Positions 5,718-14,368 are shown, counted from the stretch's first letter. The stretch: DNA of 64,000 nt from Gammaproteobacteria bacterium (GCA_016199745.1 JACQFZ010000005.1:1-64000), one strand, 5' to 3'. Notes: generated by a model from the letters alone, not told the origin. Program-made: numbers and translations.

Positions 5718-5902
5718 ATGGCACTTACTTAAGCGCCATCGACAACAGATGTCACGATTGACTCCTCCCCCTTCAGGGGGGAGGTTGGGAGGGGGGTGGG
5801 TTTTATGGCAGCGATAACCGAGTAAAAAACCCACCCCCACCCCAGCCCTCCCCCTGAGGGGGAGGGAGCTAGCGCGTGCCGCGGCTTAAGTAAGTGCCAT
5901 TC
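5718..5902. repeat. Long fold-back intergenic repeat
   Basis: The outer arms are inverted: AATGGCACTTACTTAAGC at 5718 and its complement at 5885-5902. Inside them lies a second inverted pair, GGGGGTGGGTTTT against AAAACCCACCCCCACC, and each half contains its own CCCCCTTCAGGGGG-type hairpin. The right half is nearly identical to positions 1-63. The right arm overlaps the last codons of the beta-helix gene (see 5886). Confidence 0.85.
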
Positions 5903-6782
5903 CATAGCGCATGCCGGGGCCGAAGATGTTATTGCGGAACAGTCCGCTGATCGGACCGTTTGCGGCCTCGCCGTCCTCATTCTTGTTAACGGTCCAGTTG
6001 CCGCCGGCGAAAAAATTGTTGTAAACCTCGAAGCCGGTGATGGTGCTGAGGTTGCCGTTATTCGTCGCCGGATCCGGTTGGCGACCGAGCATGACCGCTG
6101 CATTGGCCATACCCGATGCCGAATACGTTCCGTCGGCATTCCGATGGAGCTCGCCTTTGCCGGAATTGAAGGCGAGGCAGGTATTGTTGTAGACCTGCCA
6201 ATTGTCGCCGCTGGTTACTTGCAAACAATCGGAATGCGAGTCAGTTTCGTGGTGCAGGTCGTGGATGTAGTTGTAACGTACGGTCATGCGATCTTTCAGC
6301 AAGATTCCGTCGGCGACATCGTGAATATCCGAATACTCGACGACGATGTCGCTGCGGTGCACGGCAACGCCCTCTTCGTCAGGCCAGCCGGTCGTTGTCG
6401 GTCCGATAATTTCGACGTACGAAAGATTTAGCGCCAGACCGCCGATGTCGGTACCGCTGCCGTAGACAACGCCTCTTCCGCCGGTGGTCGCCGCGTCGAT
6501 TCGGCTGCAGCGCACATGCACATTTTTATGGGCGACCTTTAACGTACCTTTGATCCATTTGTGTTCGATAAGCTCGTTGTCCGCCTTGGTCGTATAACTT
6601 CCGGGAATCACGACCAGGCTACTAAGCGTGTCGCCGCACGCCTTCCAGCCAACGGTGGTCGGATTGGGCAAGCCCGTGGGAATCACCATACCGTTGCCAA
6701 GATCGAATGCATGGACGGTCATCACGACGACGGAGGTCGTGATGCCGATACAAGTTTGCGCGATGGTTCGAATTCGTTTCAT
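5886..6782 (-). CDS. Secreted right-handed beta-helix protein, C-terminus inside a repeat
   Basis: A 298-residue protein with a signal peptide ending near TVHAFDLG. The body carries repeated short turns typical of parallel beta-helix proteins of the pectate-lyase/Pbl kind (VHRSDIVVEYSDIHDVADGI, MTVRYNYIHDLHHETDSHSD, WQVYNNTCLAFNSG, FEVYNNFFAGGNW). It probably binds or cleaves a polysaccharide outside the cytoplasm; the HETDSHSDCLQ stretch is the best candidate for catalytic or metal residues. A good AGGAG precedes the ATG. The last residues GMALT and the stop are encoded by the outer arm of the fold-back repeat, so the natural C-terminus may have been replaced or trimmed. Confidence 0.75.
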   Translation of the reverse strand: MKRIRTIAQTCIGITTSVVVMTVHAFDLGNGMVIPTGLPNPTTVGWKACGDTLSSLVVIPGSYTTKADNELIEHKWIKGTLKVAHKNVHVRCSRIDAATTGGRGVVYGSGTDIGGLALNLSYVEIIGPTTTGWPDEEGVAVHRSDIVVEYSDIHDVADGILLKDRMTVRYNYIHDLHHETDSHSDCLQVTSGDNWQVYNNTCLAFNSGKGELHRNADGTYSASGMANAAVMLGRQPDPATNNGNLSTITGFEVYNNFFAGGNWTVNKNEDGEAANGPISGLFRNNIFGPGMRYGMALT

Positions 6783-7097: not shown

Positions 7098-9176
7098 TCA
7101 GGTAGGGTTCTCGCCATCATGATGCCGCAGTATCTGCCCATCCTGGGTGTACAAATAAATATCATCGCCGACCGAGTTGATATGTCGAATCGGCGGTAGA
7201 TCGGTTACCAACGTCGGCGTGCGCGGGTACGAACTATTGGTTCCGCCCCAGCGCCACACGCTGCCATCGAATTTCAAGGCGTAGAAAACGTCGGTGTACG
7301 CCGGCGTGCCGGCCAGTTCCTTGACGTCGCGGATCGCGGTCAGCACCGTCGGCCGGTACTTGGGATCGGTCGTGCCGTCGCCGAAGCTGCCGTTTTCGTT
7401 CGAGCCCCAGCCGACTAACGTACCATCGCGCTTGAGCGCAAACACGACATTCGAGGTGAAAGCGACGGCTTTGACCGCGGTCACGCCCGCCACTAATTCC
7501 GGTGTCGACCGATCCGGTGCATCCGGACCGTTGGCAAAACTATTGCCGCCCTTACCCCAACCATAGAGCACGCCGTTTTGATCGACGGCGAATACGCTGT
7601 AGAGCTTACTGAAGACATTGACGATGTGTGACAGTCCGGGAATGCGCAGCGGATGCGCGTTCGTCGGCACCGCCCACGTGTCGGTCACATCGCAGGTACC
7701 CTCCTTCGGCGTGTTGCCCAAGCCCAACGCGCCGTAGATGTCGGCGCCCCACGAGTAGACATTGCCGGCGCCATCGCGGGCAATCGCGTAGTAGTCACCG
7801 GTAGCGAGCGAGGTGACGTTGGTCAGGCCGGTAATTTGCACCGGCGTCAACGTCGGCCCGGACAAGGTACCGATGCCCAATAATCCACATTTGTTGGGGC
7901 CCCAGGTCAAGACATCGCCGTTGGTCTTGATGAGAAATCCTTGGGCGCGAAATTGATTGGGGATTAGCTGCTTGACGTCGACCGCAAAGTTGGCGATGCG
8001 GGTCTCATCCGACTGCAATTGGCACACCGACGCCGCGAGGCGCATGAACCGTCGCCGCACTAACACCGAGCCGTCTTTCAATAATTCGGCGCCGTCCTGC
8101 CAACCGCAGATGCCGTCGATGTCGGACGTATGCCCGCGCACGTAAATGACCTCGGCCACGAACGGCGCCGCCGAAAAGTTTTGCATAAGGCTGAATTGTT
8201 GTGCCACCGAGTTCGCGCCGACACTGAAAGCGATCGGCAGATGCACGGCGTCGTACATCGGCAATCTTCCTGGTGCCGAGGCGGTACCGTCGAGCGCAGC
8301 ACCGTTGATTGTTCCGTCGGTCAGGTCGCGCGCCAATTCTTCGGTCGCTTGCAACGCCGGCAAATCCTCGGTCAATAGAAATTGACTCGCCATTCTGACA
8401 AATCCACCGGTGACAACCGCTGCCAGACCGTGACGCGTGCTGGCCAGCGAATCGCTAGCGCTGTCGGCGGTGATCGGCGTCGGCAATGCCTTGAGCGAGG
8501 ACAACTGATAAGCGCTCGGGAGCGCGCGGTTGAGCTCGGCGAGCACGAGCTGGTTAGCGGCGGCGATACGGGCAACACTAAGGCCGGTGACGTCGGCGGT
8601 TTTGCGTAACGGCACCGTCCCGTCGGCAATCTTCGCCGACTCGACCAAATAGTTATTGATGGCGTAACGATACGCCGCCTCGGTGAAGGACGAGACACCG
8701 ATGTTTTCATCGACCACATCGACCAAGGCGTGAATTTCTTGATCGGGTCCGAAATCGACTAGCGCGTTCTTGCCCTCGTCAAAATATTTCGCGCCGGCGG
8801 CACCCTTGAGCGTAATGAGCAAGGGTGCCTTATCGCAGGTCGTCACCGTAACGAGTCCGTTGACCGAATCGGTATACGCTTCGCCGATCGACGCACCATC
8901 GGTAATGCGGCTAACACGTACTAAACCTCGCAGGACTTTGCCGAGGCCGCCACCGACACCGGAGCTCGAACCACCATCACCACCATCGGGATCATGTCCG
9001 CCACCATCGTGATAAACCGGTGGCGCCTCTACATCGCGGACAAAGCCCGATACCACACCGGCGCGACACTGCGTCGCCTGGCTCGACGTCGCGCCGTCGC
9101 CACTACCGCCGCCACAGGACAGCAGCATCAACATGGCCGATATCGACGAAAAAATCTTGATGTAGGTGGTTTGCAT
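7098..9176 (-). CDS. RCC1-repeat lipoprotein
   Basis: A 692-residue lipoprotein. The signal peptide ends in the lipobox LLSC (Cys21), followed by GGGSGDG, so it is anchored in the envelope. A low-complexity Gly/Asp linker follows at about 50-80. Residues about 90-350 are an unassigned helical region. From about 390 there are RCC1-type blades (GDVLTWGPNKCGLLGIG, GNVYSWGADIYGALGLGNT, GVLYGWGKGGNSFANG, GTLVGWGSNENGSFGDGT, GSVWRWGGTNSS), predicting a beta-propeller for protein binding. It is the last gene of the sigma/anti-sigma/caspase operon, 17 bases after the WD40-caspase gene. A ribosome site is only weakly visible. Confidence 0.88.
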   Translation of the reverse strand: MQTTYIKIFSSISAMLMLLSCGGGSGDGATSSQATQCRAGVVSGFVRDVEAPPVYHDGGGHDPDGGDGGSSSGVGGGLGKVLRGLVRVSRITDGASIGEAYTDSVNGLVTVTTCDKAPLLITLKGAAGAKYFDEGKNALVDFGPDQEIHALVDVVDENIGVSSFTEAAYRYAINNYLVESAKIADGTVPLRKTADVTGLSVARIAAANQLVLAELNRALPSAYQLSSLKALPTPITADSASDSLASTRHGLAAVVTGGFVRMASQFLLTEDLPALQATEELARDLTDGTINGAALDGTASAPGRLPMYDAVHLPIAFSVGANSVAQQFSLMQNFSAAPFVAEVIYVRGHTSDIDGICGWQDGAELLKDGSVLVRRRFMRLAASVCQLQSDETRIANFAVDVKQLIPNQFRAQGFLIKTNGDVLTWGPNKCGLLGIGTLSGPTLTPVQITGLTNVTSLATGDYYAIARDGAGNVYSWGADIYGALGLGNTPKEGTCDVTDTWAVPTNAHPLRIPGLSHIVNVFSKLYSVFAVDQNGVLYGWGKGGNSFANGPDAPDRSTPELVAGVTAVKAVAFTSNVVFALKRDGTLVGWGSNENGSFGDGTTDPKYRPTVLTAIRDVKELAGTPAYTDVFYALKFDGSVWRWGGTNSSYPRTPTLVTDLPPIRHINSVGDDIYLYTQDGQILRHHDGENPT

Positions 9177-9192
9177 AAATCGCGCGGCGGTC

Positions 9193-12141
9193 CTATTCCA
9201 AACTCTTAGTAATGGCGAAATCTCTAAAGCCGATCGGCACCGTCGTTATCGGTATTTGCCGGCCATTCGTCAACTGCTGTACCGCCTGCGTGACGAAGTA
9301 ATCGAGTCCTTTGAACGTCACAAACCCTTCGCGGCGAAAATCGGCCTTGCCCTTCAGGCCGATGACCAGCTCCTTGGTGAAAGCGCCGTTACCCCAGGCG
9401 TCGTCTTCCAGCGAATCTTGGCGACCGTCGCTGGAGGAGAAAACAATGACGCCGCTTTCGGGGCTGGCGAGCTTGTTGGCGATGAGGGTCGTGTCGTGCT
9501 TGCTGAATGCGTTGGCGACCTTGCCGGAATAGCACGAGTCGATAAAGAACAGCACCTGTCCGCGAATCTTCACCAACGCGTCGCGAATCTGCTCGTCCGA
9601 CACCATGGTGTCGTCGGGCGCAGCGACATCGGCGTCGTGCGGCAGAAAATAATACGCGCCGGCATCGACGGCGCCGTGGCCGGCGATAAATAGGACGCCG
9701 ATGTCGGCAGCGGTGACATTTTCCCGTAACCACTGCAACCCAGCGACGATCGCCTGATGCGTGGCCTGTTGGTTGGTCAACACATGAGTGACGACGCGCT
9801 TGTAAAACACGCCTTCTTGCAACTTGAGCGAGCGGGTGAAATCGGCGGCGTCCTTGGCAGCGAACGTCAAGTCGTAACCGGCGTCGGCGTACTGGCTGAC
9901 ACCGATAGCCAACACATACAGCGTCGGTCGTTTCGTCAGCGGCAGACGAGCGCCAGCGGACGACGCCCCGCGCCAGACGTAGTAAACCGTCAACGGTTCC
10001 GAAACACCGAAGGAGTTGCTGGCGAACACTTGCACGATCGCATCGGCTGCCGGCGTCGGCAACGTGATGCGGCCGATCGCTCGACCATCGGCGAGCTTCG
10101 GCGGCGACAACGACAGCGGCTGCACCGGCCGCCCGTCCAACTTGACCTCGACCGCCGCGATCGGTTTCGAATCCGGTGTATATACCGAAAAATCGACGGT
10201 CAGCGTCGGCGCCTGCATCGATAGCAACTTCGAGCTGCGCAGGCTCAACGCCGGCGGCAACGCCGCCGACGGTGGCGACAACGCGGTCAGCAACGCCCGA
10301 ATTCTGCGGCCGAGCGGCTTGTTGCCGGCGCTACCGGCGCGCTTGCGCAAATCGTCGTTGGCAGCGGCCAACGCCTTGGCCGAATCTTTGCGCGACAACA
10401 CGTTATCGATGACATCAGGTCGGTAAAAACGCTCGCGAAAACGCGCCACCGGATAAAAATCCGCCGTCGCCGCCGTCGGCCGATTGACATGCCAACCGAC
10501 CAATTGTTCGGCGCCGATACTCGCGTCGTAGTGGCCCTGCTCGGTCCATATAATCCAGCGACCATCGGCGACGGCGAACAACGACATCAACACGCTGCCG
10601 TCACTGGTGCGCAGCCAACGAAACGTACCGTCGGTCGACGCGGTGATCGCCAGCTGCGAATCGGCGCTGACGTTGACCGCGGTAATCTCGGTTGCCACCG
10701 GCAACTTCCAGATTTCCGCGCCCGATCGGTCGAGCTTGCGTAGGCTCCAGCTGGTCGCCAACAACATCGCCGAATCGTCCGGCAACACAGCAACGGCGCG
10801 CGAGATTTCACCCGGCGCCAGCTTAATGGGGCGGCCACCTAACCGCGGCGTAAAATCATTCTGCCAATGCGTACTGGAAAAATTAGTCGACTCGGTAATG
10901 GCCGCGTGCGTGTCCGCCGGCAAGCCTTGATACAGCTTGCGTCGTTCCAAATCGAAGGTCATGGGCACCGCTTTGTCGAAGCTCATCGGTCCCGCTTCCG
11001 ACATGGCGTACCAGCTAACCTGTGTTCCCTGCGCATTGATCCTGAGGCGATCGGCGCCGCGCAAATCAAATAGCGGCGACACCTGCTTCATGACCAACTG
11101 GTCGTCTTTAATGAAACCGCAAGCCGGCTCGAACGTAGAGAAGGCCAGTGTGCCGTCGGCAAGGGTCGCGAAATCGGTAATCGAATTCGGTCCCACTTCG
11201 ATATTGGTAACCGTACCCGTCGGCCAGGCGATTTTTTTGACGATAAACCGCGCCGGTGGGCGATAACCACTACCGCCGGCATAGATCGCCGAGCCGTCAC
11301 CGCCCCAAACCACATTCATGAGATTGCCGTCGGCCAGGCCGTCGAGCGGAAAGCGGCGCGTCATTTGACCGGTGGCGATGTCGAACACGCTGACCTCGGC
11401 CACTCCGCGCTTGAGTCGCGACAGATAGCCGACGGCGAGCTGGTTGCCGTCCGGGGAAAAGCTGACGCTCACCGGGTCGGGCAGCGGTGTCGCGAAGGTG
11501 TTGATCAGCCGCACGCTGCCGTCGACGAATCGATAGAGACGAACCTTGCCGTCGAACGCCGGCACGGCGATGCTGCCGCTGGCCGATATCGACGCTCCAT
11601 ACGAGCCGCCGGCGAATGCATCGGCGAAGACTTCGCGCCCGCGCCGATCGAAAATCCGCACCCCGTTATTGCCGGCGTACGATGCGACCAAATAATTTCC
11701 GTCCGGCGTCCAGGCAAGGTGTTTGATGTCGCCGGCGCGGGCGTCGATCACGTCGGTCAGCGTTCCAGTATCAAGGTTAAATAGATAAATCCGATGCGGC
11801 AGCGTCTTGCCGCCGGTCGTGCCGCCGACCGCGACCTCGGTACCTTGCGGCGAAATCGCCACGCCGTACAGCTTGCCGACATTGCCCGGCTCGATCGGCA
11901 CGCGCAGTATCGATAGCAACCGCTGTGTCTGGCGGTCCCAGACACGTGCGGTTTTGTCGTCGCTGACCGTGACAATACGAGTTCCGGTCGAATCCACCGC
12001 CAATCGCCGTATCGGCCCGGTATGCTGACCCGCTTCGATCCGCAGCATGGGATCGACCGTCGCCGCCGCTATGTGCGCAAAAAAAATGAAGAGGAATGGG
12101 CAGGCAAGCAAAAGCCGATTGGCGAACGATCGCCGTTTCAT
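9193..12141 (-). CDS. Exported WD40-repeat caspase-like (C14) protein
   Basis: A 982-residue protein with a signal peptide (LLLACPFLFIFFAHIAAA). Residues about 33-540 carry WD40-like blades (HTGPIRRLAVDSTGTRIVTV; SDDKTARVWD; SVSFSPDGNQLAVGY), predicting one or two propellers. A beta-rich linker follows. Residues about 741-982 are a caspase/metacaspase p20-like domain: LYVLAIGVSQYADAGYDL, catalytic His822 in FIAGHGA and Cys870 in IDSCYSG. Such proteases cut after Arg, Lys or Asp; specificity here is unknown. Both catalytic residues are present, so activity is expected. GGGAG precedes the ATG. It follows the smaller caspase gene by 113 bases and is followed closely by the RCC1 lipoprotein gene. 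Export places it in the periplasm, unusual for a caspase-like enzyme. Confidence 0.9.
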   Translation of the reverse strand: MKRRSFANRLLLACPFLFIFFAHIAAATVDPMLRIEAGQHTGPIRRLAVDSTGTRIVTVSDDKTARVWDRQTQRLLSILRVPIEPGNVGKLYGVAISPQGTEVAVGGTTGGKTLPHRIYLFNLDTGTLTDVIDARAGDIKHLAWTPDGNYLVASYAGNNGVRIFDRRGREVFADAFAGGSYGASISASGSIAVPAFDGKVRLYRFVDGSVRLINTFATPLPDPVSVSFSPDGNQLAVGYLSRLKRGVAEVSVFDIATGQMTRRFPLDGLADGNLMNVVWGGDGSAIYAGGSGYRPPARFIVKKIAWPTGTVTNIEVGPNSITDFATLADGTLAFSTFEPACGFIKDDQLVMKQVSPLFDLRGADRLRINAQGTQVSWYAMSEAGPMSFDKAVPMTFDLERRKLYQGLPADTHAAITESTNFSSTHWQNDFTPRLGGRPIKLAPGEISRAVAVLPDDSAMLLATSWSLRKLDRSGAEIWKLPVATEITAVNVSADSQLAITASTDGTFRWLRTSDGSVLMSLFAVADGRWIIWTEQGHYDASIGAEQLVGWHVNRPTAATADFYPVARFRERFYRPDVIDNVLSRKDSAKALAAANDDLRKRAGSAGNKPLGRRIRALLTALSPPSAALPPALSLRSSKLLSMQAPTLTVDFSVYTPDSKPIAAVEVKLDGRPVQPLSLSPPKLADGRAIGRITLPTPAADAIVQVFASNSFGVSEPLTVYYVWRGASSAGARLPLTKRPTLYVLAIGVSQYADAGYDLTFAAKDAADFTRSLKLQEGVFYKRVVTHVLTNQQATHQAIVAGLQWLRENVTAADIGVLFIAGHGAVDAGAYYFLPHDADVAAPDDTMVSDEQIRDALVKIRGQVLFFIDSCYSGKVANAFSKHDTTLIANKLASPESGVIVFSSSDGRQDSLEDDAWGNGAFTKELVIGLKGKADFRREGFVTFKGLDYFVTQAVQQLTNGRQIPITTVPIGFRDFAITKSLE

Positions 12142-12254
12142 GAATCACTCCCCGCAGATCTTCTATTTAGAATCAAACGACGTGCATTGAAGCAAAGGTA
12201 TGGTCCCGGGTCATTAACCGCTAAGAGCCGTAAACGGTCGACTGTGAATACCTA

Positions 12255-13094
12255 TTACTTCGCAATAGCGTCGCCAGCACTATATAAACACTCGCCATTA
12301 GCGGCGGCCTTGAAACAGAAGTCGCCGAGCAAATTCGATTTCATCCACGGCTTCTGCACCTGCTGTGTTTCGTTAGAGACGGCGGCGCCGACATGCTTGA
12401 ACAATTGCTCGACCTGCAGCTCGGGCTGGCGCCGTAAATTGTCGAGCAGGTACTTTGTGTAAATGCCGTGCGCCGCACCGCGACCGTCGAATGCCACGCC
12501 GCCGTTGGCGGTCGACAACGCCACCAACGTCCCGAGCGGCGGCTCGCGCCGGACCCATTGCGGCAAACGCCGGCTATACAACTTATTGGTTCTGCACGTA
12601 TCGAGTACGACGATGCTGACGCCGGACCGCAACCGGCCGAGGCTTTCCACCAGCTCGTCCACATCGTAACCCTGGCCGGAAATATCCTGCTCCCAGCGCC
12701 GGTCGGCGTCCACCGGAATGAGATAGTTGACGCGATCGAGCGATACCGCGTGACCGGCGTAATAAAACACCCGGATCGGATAACGTTGCGCCTTGATCCA
12801 AAATTCCTGAATGACGTCGCGCATGGTCTGTCGATCGGCATCCTCCAGCTGCATGACGTCGAAACCGAGATCCTTGAGCGCGATGCCCATCGCCCGCGCA
12901 TCGTTCACCGGATTTTTGAGTGGCGCCAGCGACGGTGAACGTCGATATGCGCCGTTGCCGATAACCAGCGCGATACGGTCCTGGGGCGCTTTCTGACTGG
13001 CAGCGTCGGCCGCGATCACGATCGCCGGCGCCACACCGGCGATCAACACCAGCAGCGGAATAACGGCCAAGGAGATACGCGCCATCGACGTCAA
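12255..13094 (-). CDS. Exported caspase-like (C14) protein
   Basis: A 279-residue protein, almost entirely one caspase-fold domain after a signal peptide (ISLAVIPLLVLIAGVAPAIVIAA in the first 30 residues). Landmarks are IALVIGNGAY at the first strand, His115 in FYYAGHAV and Cys167 in VLDTCRTN, so the catalytic dyad is intact. The first codon used is TTG, 6-7 bases after GGGAG and only 3 bases after the anti-sigma stop. An ATG at 13085 is possible but badly spaced. It belongs to the sigma/anti-sigma operon. GNGAYRRSPSLAPLKNPVND is typical of bacterial C14 proteins; here the enzyme would be periplasmic. Confidence 0.88.
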   Translation of the reverse strand: MTSMARISLAVIPLLVLIAGVAPAIVIAADAASQKAPQDRIALVIGNGAYRRSPSLAPLKNPVNDARAMGIALKDLGFDVMQLEDADRQTMRDVIQEFWIKAQRYPIRVFYYAGHAVSLDRVNYLIPVDADRRWEQDISGQGYDVDELVESLGRLRSGVSIVVLDTCRTNKLYSRRLPQWVRREPPLGTLVALSTANGGVAFDGRGAAHGIYTKYLLDNLRRQPELQVEQLFKHVGAAVSNETQQVQKPWMKSNLLGDFCFKAAANGECLYSAGDAIAK

Positions 13095-13097
13095 TTC

Positions 13098-13763
13098 TCA
13101 CTCCCCTGCCGGCAGCGGCGGCAAAATCCGCACCGCCAGCACGATCTTGGAGGCGGCCAACCGCTGCGCCGACTCATCGACCTTATCGCTGGGCACGTGC
13201 AGCAAGTAATTGCCGAGCTGACCGGGGCCGCCGACCACACTGGCACCGAGCTCGACCAGCAGAAAACGAATTTCGTGCTCGCTGGCATCCGCCCGGAAAT
13301 TGACTTCGAGCAGCGGACCGCGCGCCACACCGCCGACCGACCGCACGGCGCCGTAGTCAGAATTATTCTGGCGCAGCACGAGTACGCCGTTGATCACGGC
13401 TTGGATAACGACCACGACGATCAAGCCGGTCGTCAACATCGACACCGACCAGTCGCCGGCAAAGGCATCGCCGGCGCGCCGGCGCCAGGCACGCAGTCGC
13501 TCACTGAAACGCGGCGTTGCCGAGCGCTGCTCCTGGCGAATGCGCGACAGAAATTTTTCCATGCCGACGTCGGCCGACACCGCCGACGTATCTACCTGTT
13601 GCACGGCTTGGCGCAGGAATTCATCCCAACGCAACTCACTGCGAACGTCCGGATGATCCTTTATATATTGATCCATCCACTCGCGGTCAGCGGTGGCCAG
13701 CGTCCCATTCACGTACCACGGCAATAATTCGTGGAACTGTTGCTTCAGCTGCTGTTCGTTCAT
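13098..13763 (-). CDS. Membrane anti-sigma factor
   Basis: A 221-residue protein from the ATG at 13763, chosen because AAGGAG stands eight bases upstream and similarity starts with MNEQQLKQQFHELLPWYVNG. This N-terminal part (1-60) resembles anti-sigma domains without the zinc HxxxCxxC motif. One membrane helix lies at about residues 115-140 (LTTGLIVVVVIQAVINGVLV). The C-terminal periplasmic part (RFLLVELGASVVGGPGQLGNYLLHVP) looks like the small ferredoxin-like domains found in other ECF-linked anti-sigmas. It overlaps the sigma gene by ATGA, so the two are coupled. It should hold the sigma factor at the membrane until a periplasmic event, perhaps cleavage by the neighbouring caspases, releases it. 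Confidence 0.85.
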   Translation of the reverse strand: MNEQQLKQQFHELLPWYVNGTLATADREWMDQYIKDHPDVRSELRWDEFLRQAVQQVDTSAVSADVGMEKFLSRIRQEQRSATPRFSERLRAWRRRAGDAFAGDWSVSMLTTGLIVVVVIQAVINGVLVLRQNNSDYGAVRSVGGVARGPLLEVNFRADASEHEIRFLLVELGASVVGGPGQLGNYLLHVPSDKVDESAQRLAASKIVLAVRILPPLPAGE

Positions 13764-14368
13764 ATCGCCGCTCCTTGCAATACCAGCCGCAGACAATTCT
13801 TGATTTTTTGCCGGGCGTGAAACATGCGCGTTTTTACCGTGTTCGGCGGACAGTTCTGAATTCTTGCCACTTCTTCGATCGACAGGTCGAGTGCATAAAC
13901 CAGATGCAAGCACTCGCCGTGGATTTCCGGCAGCTTGCCGATGCAACGTTGCACGTCGCGCTGCAAATGTTTTTGACCAACCTCGTCGGACGGGTCCAGA
14001 TCAGGGCCGGCGACTTCGTCCATTATTTTCAGCAGGCAATCGTCGGCAACGACTTCAACCCGGCGATCGCGCGCGCTGCTACGTCGCGCTGTCAGCGCTT
14101 TGTGATGGGCGATGGCGATGACAAACGTACTGAAGCTCGACTCACCGCGAAATCGCCGCGGATTGCGCCAGATCTCGTACATGGTGTCTTGCACGACTTC
14201 CTCCGCGACCGCCGAATCCTTCACCAGCCGCAACACATTGCGCGCGATCATCGCCCCGAAGTTGCGGTACAACTCCGCCATCGCCTGCTGATCGCCGGCG
14301 GCAATGCCATCGAGTAGCTCGCCGACCCGGTCGGCGAGCACTGATTTCGGATCGTTAGTTTGCGGCAC
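13760..14368 (-). CDS. ECF RNA polymerase sigma factor
   Basis: A 202-residue ECF sigma factor. Region 2 is at about residues 25-95 (ELYRNFGAMIARNVLRLVKD, AEEVVQDTMYEIWRNPRRFR, SFSTFVIAIAHHKAL). Region 4 is at about 145-195 (LPEIHGECLHLVYALDLSIEEVARI, PPNTVKTRMFHARQKIKNCL). The start codon read here is GTG with a poor ribosome site. It overlaps the anti-sigma gene by 4 bases and heads a five-gene operon containing two caspase-like proteases and an RCC1 lipoprotein. Autoregulation is likely by analogy with other ECF pairs, but no promoter motif could be fixed upstream. Confidence 0.92.
   Translation of the reverse strand: MPQTNDPKSVLADRVGELLDGIAAGDQQAMAELYRNFGAMIARNVLRLVKDSAVAEEVVQDTMYEIWRNPRRFRGESSFSTFVIAIAHHKALTARRSSARDRRVEVVADDCLLKIMDEVAGPDLDPSDEVGQKHLQRDVQRCIGKLPEIHGECLHLVYALDLSIEEVARIQNCPPNTVKTRMFHARQKIKNCLRLVLQGAAI

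Follow-up and report, generated by a model that had tools for sequence, protein, structure and literature searches.

The five genes at positions 7098 to 14368 of the window, by which we mean the whole 64,000-nucleotide stretch analysed here, part of a gammaproteobacterial draft genome of 4.26 Mb, are a C14-protease-bearing variant of an operon type that is more general than the window alone. The conserved core of this operon type consists of an ECF sigma factor, a membrane anti-sigma factor and an exported protease; a secreted protease adjoins the anti-sigma homologue and the ECF gene almost without exception. Counting the window, we found 18 loci in which this protease is of the C14 (caspase-like) type, and about 50 related loci in which it is a secreted S8 subtilase. 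Most bacterial caspase homologues have no known role, and discussion of them usually centres on death or defence in the cytoplasm. The defined lineage described here places caspases outside the cytoplasm, tied to a sigma/anti-sigma pair and in a slot otherwise held by a subtilase, which offers a testable function for exported caspases, namely signal transduction by an exported protease. Such a protease may be a means by which the cell passes signals to its own gene regulation.

Organization of the locus

The five minus-strand genes that a sequence-only reading had described are borne out by gene calls and, for four of them, by Pfam (Table 1). The sigma factor stop and the anti-sigma start (ATG at 13763) do share an ATGA, and the RCC1 lipoprotein gene does begin 16 bases past the WD40-caspase gene. 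The distance of 3 bases given for the anti-sigma and small caspase genes holds for a TTG start at 13094, but the small caspase most likely starts at the ATG at 13085, which makes the distance 12 bases. Order and strand also agree with the proposal that the five genes form one operon. However, a gap that the same reading did not mention splits the small caspase from the WD40-caspase, so a single transcript for all five genes is not assured. This gap contains no strong terminator, nor anything terminator-like beyond chance, and no common ECF promoter motif was evident by eye in the upstream regions of the 18 loci. Downstream of the RCC1 lipoprotein, at a distance of 315 bp and on the same strand, lies a gene for an exported protein without a Pfam family (5886-6782).

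Table 1. Genes and intergenic gap at positions 7098 to 14368 of the window
Feature	Position	Strand	Basis
ECF sigma factor, regions 2 and 4, GTG start	13760..14368	-	Pfam Sigma70_r2/r4_2
Membrane anti-sigma factor	13098..13763	-	ATGA overlap, AlphaFold model, homologues beside ECF genes
Exported C14 protease (paracaspase/orthocaspase type), dyad H115/C167, C-terminal Cys pair	12255..13094	-	Peptidase_C14, MALT1 match
Intergenic gap of 113 bp, possible separate promoter, none recognised	12142..12254	-	
Exported WD40-caspase, dyad H822/C870	9193..12141	-	Pfam WD40 and C14
Lipoprotein, N-terminal domain of unknown function and RCC1 propeller	7098..9176	-	Pfam RCC1

The sigma factor and its anti-sigma factor

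The sigma factor (202 aa) has regions 2 and 4 (Sigma70_r2 7e-13, Sigma70_r4_2 1e-11) and lacks region 3, as is the case in ECF sigma factors, and shares 56% identity with a paralogue encoded elsewhere in the genome. The anti-sigma factor has the organization of a class I membrane anti-sigma factor, with a helical N-terminal domain, one transmembrane helix at about 105-134, a linker and a C-terminal domain at 151-214, and its gene adjoins that of its ECF sigma factor. It matched no Pfam family. Its scores against NCBIfam anti-sigma proteins, 4e-5 and 9e-4, fall short of the curated cut-offs, and the family assignment therefore rests on the structure model, the gene context and homologues that match zf-HC2 (L016 and L017). 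The window protein itself contains no Cys at all and does not have the HxxxCxxC motif of zinc-binding zf-HC2 anti-sigma factors. As the single transmembrane helix is preceded by basic residues, the C-terminal domain should, by the positive-inside rule, face the periplasm.

In the AlphaFold model of the anti-sigma factor the helical N-terminal part is confident and a long helix covers the transmembrane segment. The C-terminal domain is predicted, with a pLDDT of 91-95, to have a beta-alpha-beta-beta-alpha-beta, ferredoxin-like fold. Its best structure matches include subtilisin propeptides and I9 inhibitors (Z 7.3-7.9, TM-score to the target 0.53-0.70), but S6, NikR and RRM domains score equally well, so the likeness to propeptides is one of fold class, and ferredoxin-like folds are common. 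An hhalign comparison of the domain with the propeptides of the S8 neighbours gave an end-to-end but weak alignment (probability 21%; score 20.4 versus a best score of 15.6 in 30 shuffles), and the anti-sigma factor has no Pfam match to the subtilisin propeptide/I9 family. In the linker between the transmembrane helix and this domain, an Arg within a short hydrophobic-Arg-small motif is found in 18 of 18 C14-type anti-sigma factors (Arg141 in the window; the linker of L180 fits the motif loosely), versus 16 of about 50 S8-type anti-sigma factors as counted by eye (Fisher p about 3e-7, computed with 49 S8 types and ignoring relatedness). The C14-type anti-sigma factors form one clade, so the linker Arg may be inherited.

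The small exported C14 protease

The window protease has the caspase fold with a His and Cys dyad (Peptidase_C14, 1e-32). The dyad had been placed at His115/Cys167 (numbered from the TTG), where it is indeed intact, and it is invariant in relatives at all 18 C14-type loci. Among proteins of solved structure it is closest to the MALT1 paracaspase (6.6e-18). In the alignment, with MALT1 residue numbers counted by position from H415, H115 pairs with H415, C167 with C464, D65 with D365 and D165 with D462; MALT1 D365 and D462 are Asp residues of the P1-Arg pocket. That both are kept gives support to the idea that the small caspase would cut after Arg or Lys. Orthocaspases cleave after basic residues (PMC6426788), and in view of this preference and of the likeness to MALT1 a cut after Arg141 is plausible. 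All 17 complete ECF-linked caspases carry a C-terminal Cys pair (FCF...GxC), which the exported caspase of L015 lacks. Such a pair would fit an oxidising compartment.

S8 subtilases and C14 proteases in the same slot

We searched 398 genomes across the phylum for the anti-sigma factor and inspected 32 neighbourhoods. A secreted S8 subtilase accompanies the ECF/anti-sigma pair in 31 of these, usually directly downstream, and an exported C14 protease takes its place in the other (L112); these counts are not independent because several of the genomes are closely related. Twenty neighbourhoods from the order of genome G649 comprise 15 with an S8 subtilase, one with a C14 protease (L147), one cut by a contig end and three with no protease recognised near the anti-sigma gene. 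L165 and L166 are further C14 types, while L167 and L168 are S8 types. The 12 loci with the highest scores in the family of G649, to which we limited the count, are without exception of the C14 type, in a search that favours this type because its model was built from C14 types.

The S8 operons (L016, L017, L110-L141 except L112, and most of L145-L168) resemble the window in having a homologous anti-sigma factor with the same C-terminal domain, an ECF sigma factor and an adjoining exported protease. They differ in that an S8 subtilase replaces the C14 protease, and no WD40-caspase or RCC1 lipoprotein was seen in them. We know of no paper on the linkage of an ECF sigma factor, an anti-sigma factor and a secreted S8 subtilase. 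The exchange amounts to a natural control experiment, in which the same type of regulator is combined with two unrelated proteases.

In a combined tree of the ECF and anti-sigma factors from 53 loci, four C14 types fall in one clade (0.97), and a tree of the anti-sigma factors that includes all 18 C14 types also groups them together (0.94). The ECF tree with all 18, in contrast, does not group the C14 types; in it the window ECF falls close to ECFs of the S8 type, at modest support, and the number of protease exchanges is therefore unsure. A single exchange between S8 and C14 would be the simplest reading of these trees, and two exchanges are possible.

The WD40-caspase and the RCC1 lipoprotein

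The larger caspase combines WD40 repeats (7e-18) with a C14 domain (7e-14). It is 62% identical to its paralogue in the same genome and 37-40% identical to other relatives, and its dyad is intact at the residues first suggested, His822/Cys870, and invariant in relatives. The lipoprotein (RCC1, 5e-16; 46% identity to its paralogue) has homologues that adjoin WD40 or WD40-caspase genes at four loci (L019, L046, L088 and L102); its structure model is of low confidence (pLDDT 63). At the Noviherbaspirillum locus among these (L088:7875-11872) the WD40 protein next to the RCC1-type lipoprotein has no caspase domain, which indicates that the WD40/RCC1 pair can occur without a protease. The export signals attributed to the small caspase, the WD40-caspase and the lipoprotein are seen as hydrophobic segments with KD values of 3.0, 2.8 and 2.2, versus a window median of 1.3, and as a lipobox (LLSC) on the third. 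A probable location of all three effectors in the envelope is supported by these predicted signals.

The genome of the window has a second locus (L019) with an ECF sigma factor, a WD40-caspase and an RCC1 lipoprotein. This locus has neither anti-sigma factor nor small caspase, so that the paralogous ECF is without a neighbouring anti-sigma gene. Its ECF and WD40-caspase genes are separated by a truncated OmpA domain and by an ORF that resembles a lipoprotein but has no clear Pfam assignment (L019:10592-11741). In another genome of the family (G038) the companions of the WD40-caspase are an exported caspase and a TPR lipoprotein, and an ECF sigma factor is missing. The other 56 genomes sampled from the order all lack the five-gene module.

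Genome contigs were scanned with the WD40-caspase, which gave 365 relatives from many phyla, and the loci of the best 80 were inspected. Among these 80 only one, from a Rhizobacter MAG (L046), has a related ECF operon, and we therefore reject a general linkage of WD40-caspases to ECF sigma factors. The order in L046 is ECF sigma factor, anti-sigma factor (with an ATGA-type overlap), caspase with a twin-Arg-like signal, RCC1 lipoprotein and WD40-caspase; all five genes of the window are present, with the last two swapped. Another RCC1-like ORF follows the L046 lipoprotein gene, which may therefore be split. At L033 an ECF gene near a WD40-caspase is unrelated and on the opposite strand. Conservation of the gene order, which the sequence-only reading had made the measure of its proposal, is therefore seen in part: all five genes recur in L046 and the core in 18 loci, but the module is absent from the sampled close relatives.

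Possible mechanisms

Protease signalling through the anti-sigma factor is, we infer, the mechanism that these data best support. Our preferred reading, put forward tentatively and with a little less than an even chance of being right, is that the window holds a sigma operon for sensing an extracytoplasmic protease, with a C14 protease of the paracaspase type in the slot of the S8 subtilase and with the WD40-caspase/RCC1 pair as an addition. The anti-sigma factor would hold the sigma factor at the inner membrane, and its ferredoxin-like periplasmic domain would contact the exported protease in the way that a propeptide contacts its protease. When active in the periplasm, the protease would cut the anti-sigma linker, with a candidate site after Arg141, and intramembrane proteolysis would then free the sigma factor and increase expression of the operon by autoregulation; the WD40-caspase and the RCC1 lipoprotein would presumably have roles of their own. 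The propeptide-like fold class, the linker Arg and the likeness to Arg-specific MALT1 are consistent with cleavage of the anti-sigma factor by the protease. The more specific proposal that the exported caspase is a dedicated site-1 protease, which cuts the anti-sigma factor after the conserved Arg and has replaced an ancestral subtilase with the same job, seems to us rather unlikely; if it were true, extracytoplasmic caspase activity would be converted into transcription.

It is also quite possible, if somewhat doubtful, that the anti-sigma factor responds to a different envelope signal, that standard site-1 and site-2 proteases cut it, and that the exported proteases are output effectors only, acting in envelope quality control or in antagonism or defence against other cells. 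This is the commonest ECF logic, established in the RseA/RsiW systems, and the additions of exported caspases, OmpA proteins or T6SS genes differ by locus as they would in an output regulon, for example the TssJ-fused second caspase in L172 and the TssM gene downstream in L177. What it leaves unexplained is the close association of the anti-sigma lineage with one adjacent exported protease and the propeptide-like fold of the periplasmic domain. Exported caspases linked to type VI secretion loci are only suggestive of the role in suicide or predation defence that had been proposed for the window.

The periplasmic domain could instead act as an inhibitor that holds the exported protease in an inactive state at the membrane; sigma activity would then change without cleavage when free protease titrates the domain or when the protease is lost. 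I9-type inhibitors have a ferredoxin-like fold and the protease gene is adjacent, but the domain stayed though the protease family changed, and no use of I9-type inhibitors by C14 proteases is known to us, so we regard this as distinctly improbable. Hardly credible at all are a chance association of neighbours and caspase-based defence in the cytoplasm in the manner of Craspase or gasdermin-protease systems, the latter of which we rejected: a weak match to a PADLOC caspase model is all that favours it, against the export signals on all three effectors, the full set in L046, the core in 18 loci and the lack of a defence partner nearby.

Relation to known systems

Anti-sigma factors are subject to regulated intramembrane proteolysis in several systems, such as RseA/DegS/RseP, RsiW/PrsW and RsiV/signal peptidase. 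By analogy with RseA, RsiW and RsiV, the window anti-sigma factor is a membrane protein whose extracytoplasmic domain is a possible site-1 target. The difference is that the candidate site-1 protease here is a C14 protease, recognised from its sequence, and to our knowledge no C14 protease has been described in that role. With MALT1 and the prokaryotic orthocaspases the window protease shares the caspase domain, the His/Cys dyad and the two P1-Arg pocket Asp residues, while it differs from them in its predicted export, in its C-terminal Cys pair and in being encoded beside an ECF/anti-sigma pair.

The view that no system with this gene set had been described has to be modified on two counts. 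Operons with sigma-70 and metacaspase genes were reported in 2012 from Myxococcus xanthus, Anaeromyxobacter, Haliangium, Sorangium, Ralstonia and Fibrobacter (Asplund-Samuelsson et al. 2012, PMC3501461), and the window ECF/anti-sigma pair comes from a lineage in which an S8 subtilase is the normal companion. Judged by gene order and overlaps, the window too has a sigma-70-type gene and a metacaspase gene in one operon, and it is in this predicted combination of sigma-70-type and C14 caspase genes that it resembles the operons reported earlier. N-terminal signal or transmembrane segments on many bacterial caspases are described in the same paper; the parts of it considered here do not describe an anti-sigma factor, a slot shared with S8 subtilases, a WD40-caspase/RCC1 pair or a mechanism for those operons. 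The ECF54 group has carboxypeptidase, subtilase and CHAT proteins in its gene context (PMC8999054), and is thus similar in linking an ECF sigma factor to subtilase or caspase-superfamily (CHAT) genes. It differs in being without an anti-sigma factor and in that the control proposed for it is proteolysis of the sigma factor itself (PMC8999054). In the literature accessible without subscription we found no paper on an operon of ECF sigma factor, anti-sigma factor and exported C14 protease, or on the exchange of S8 and C14 proteases.

Other genes at loci with exported caspases

Three tested C14-type loci (L171, L173 and L174) have OmpA-domain genes shortly upstream of the ECF gene. At L112 the caspase gene is followed by a lipoprotein-like gene with an M23 peptidase domain (L112:6719-8332), and the end of a CHAT-like ORF lies upstream of the ECF gene. 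The core operon of L172 runs into a second exported C14 protease fused to a TssJ (T6SS-SciN) domain (L172:7953-9284), and in L177 it is followed by a second C14 gene and a TssM/IcmF gene (L177:3591-7043). The genome of the window encodes a third exported C14 caspase on contig C17, of about 127 kb (L018:8162-9127), after T6SS genes that include TssM/IcmF and a kinase with DUF4384. Two further genomes of the order have an operon with an exported caspase, a barrel-like protein, an ORF without a Pfam match that is possibly sigma-like, and an anti-sigma-like protein with a weak zf-HC2 match (L021:5517-9357 and L022:8410-12271), apparently an independent version.
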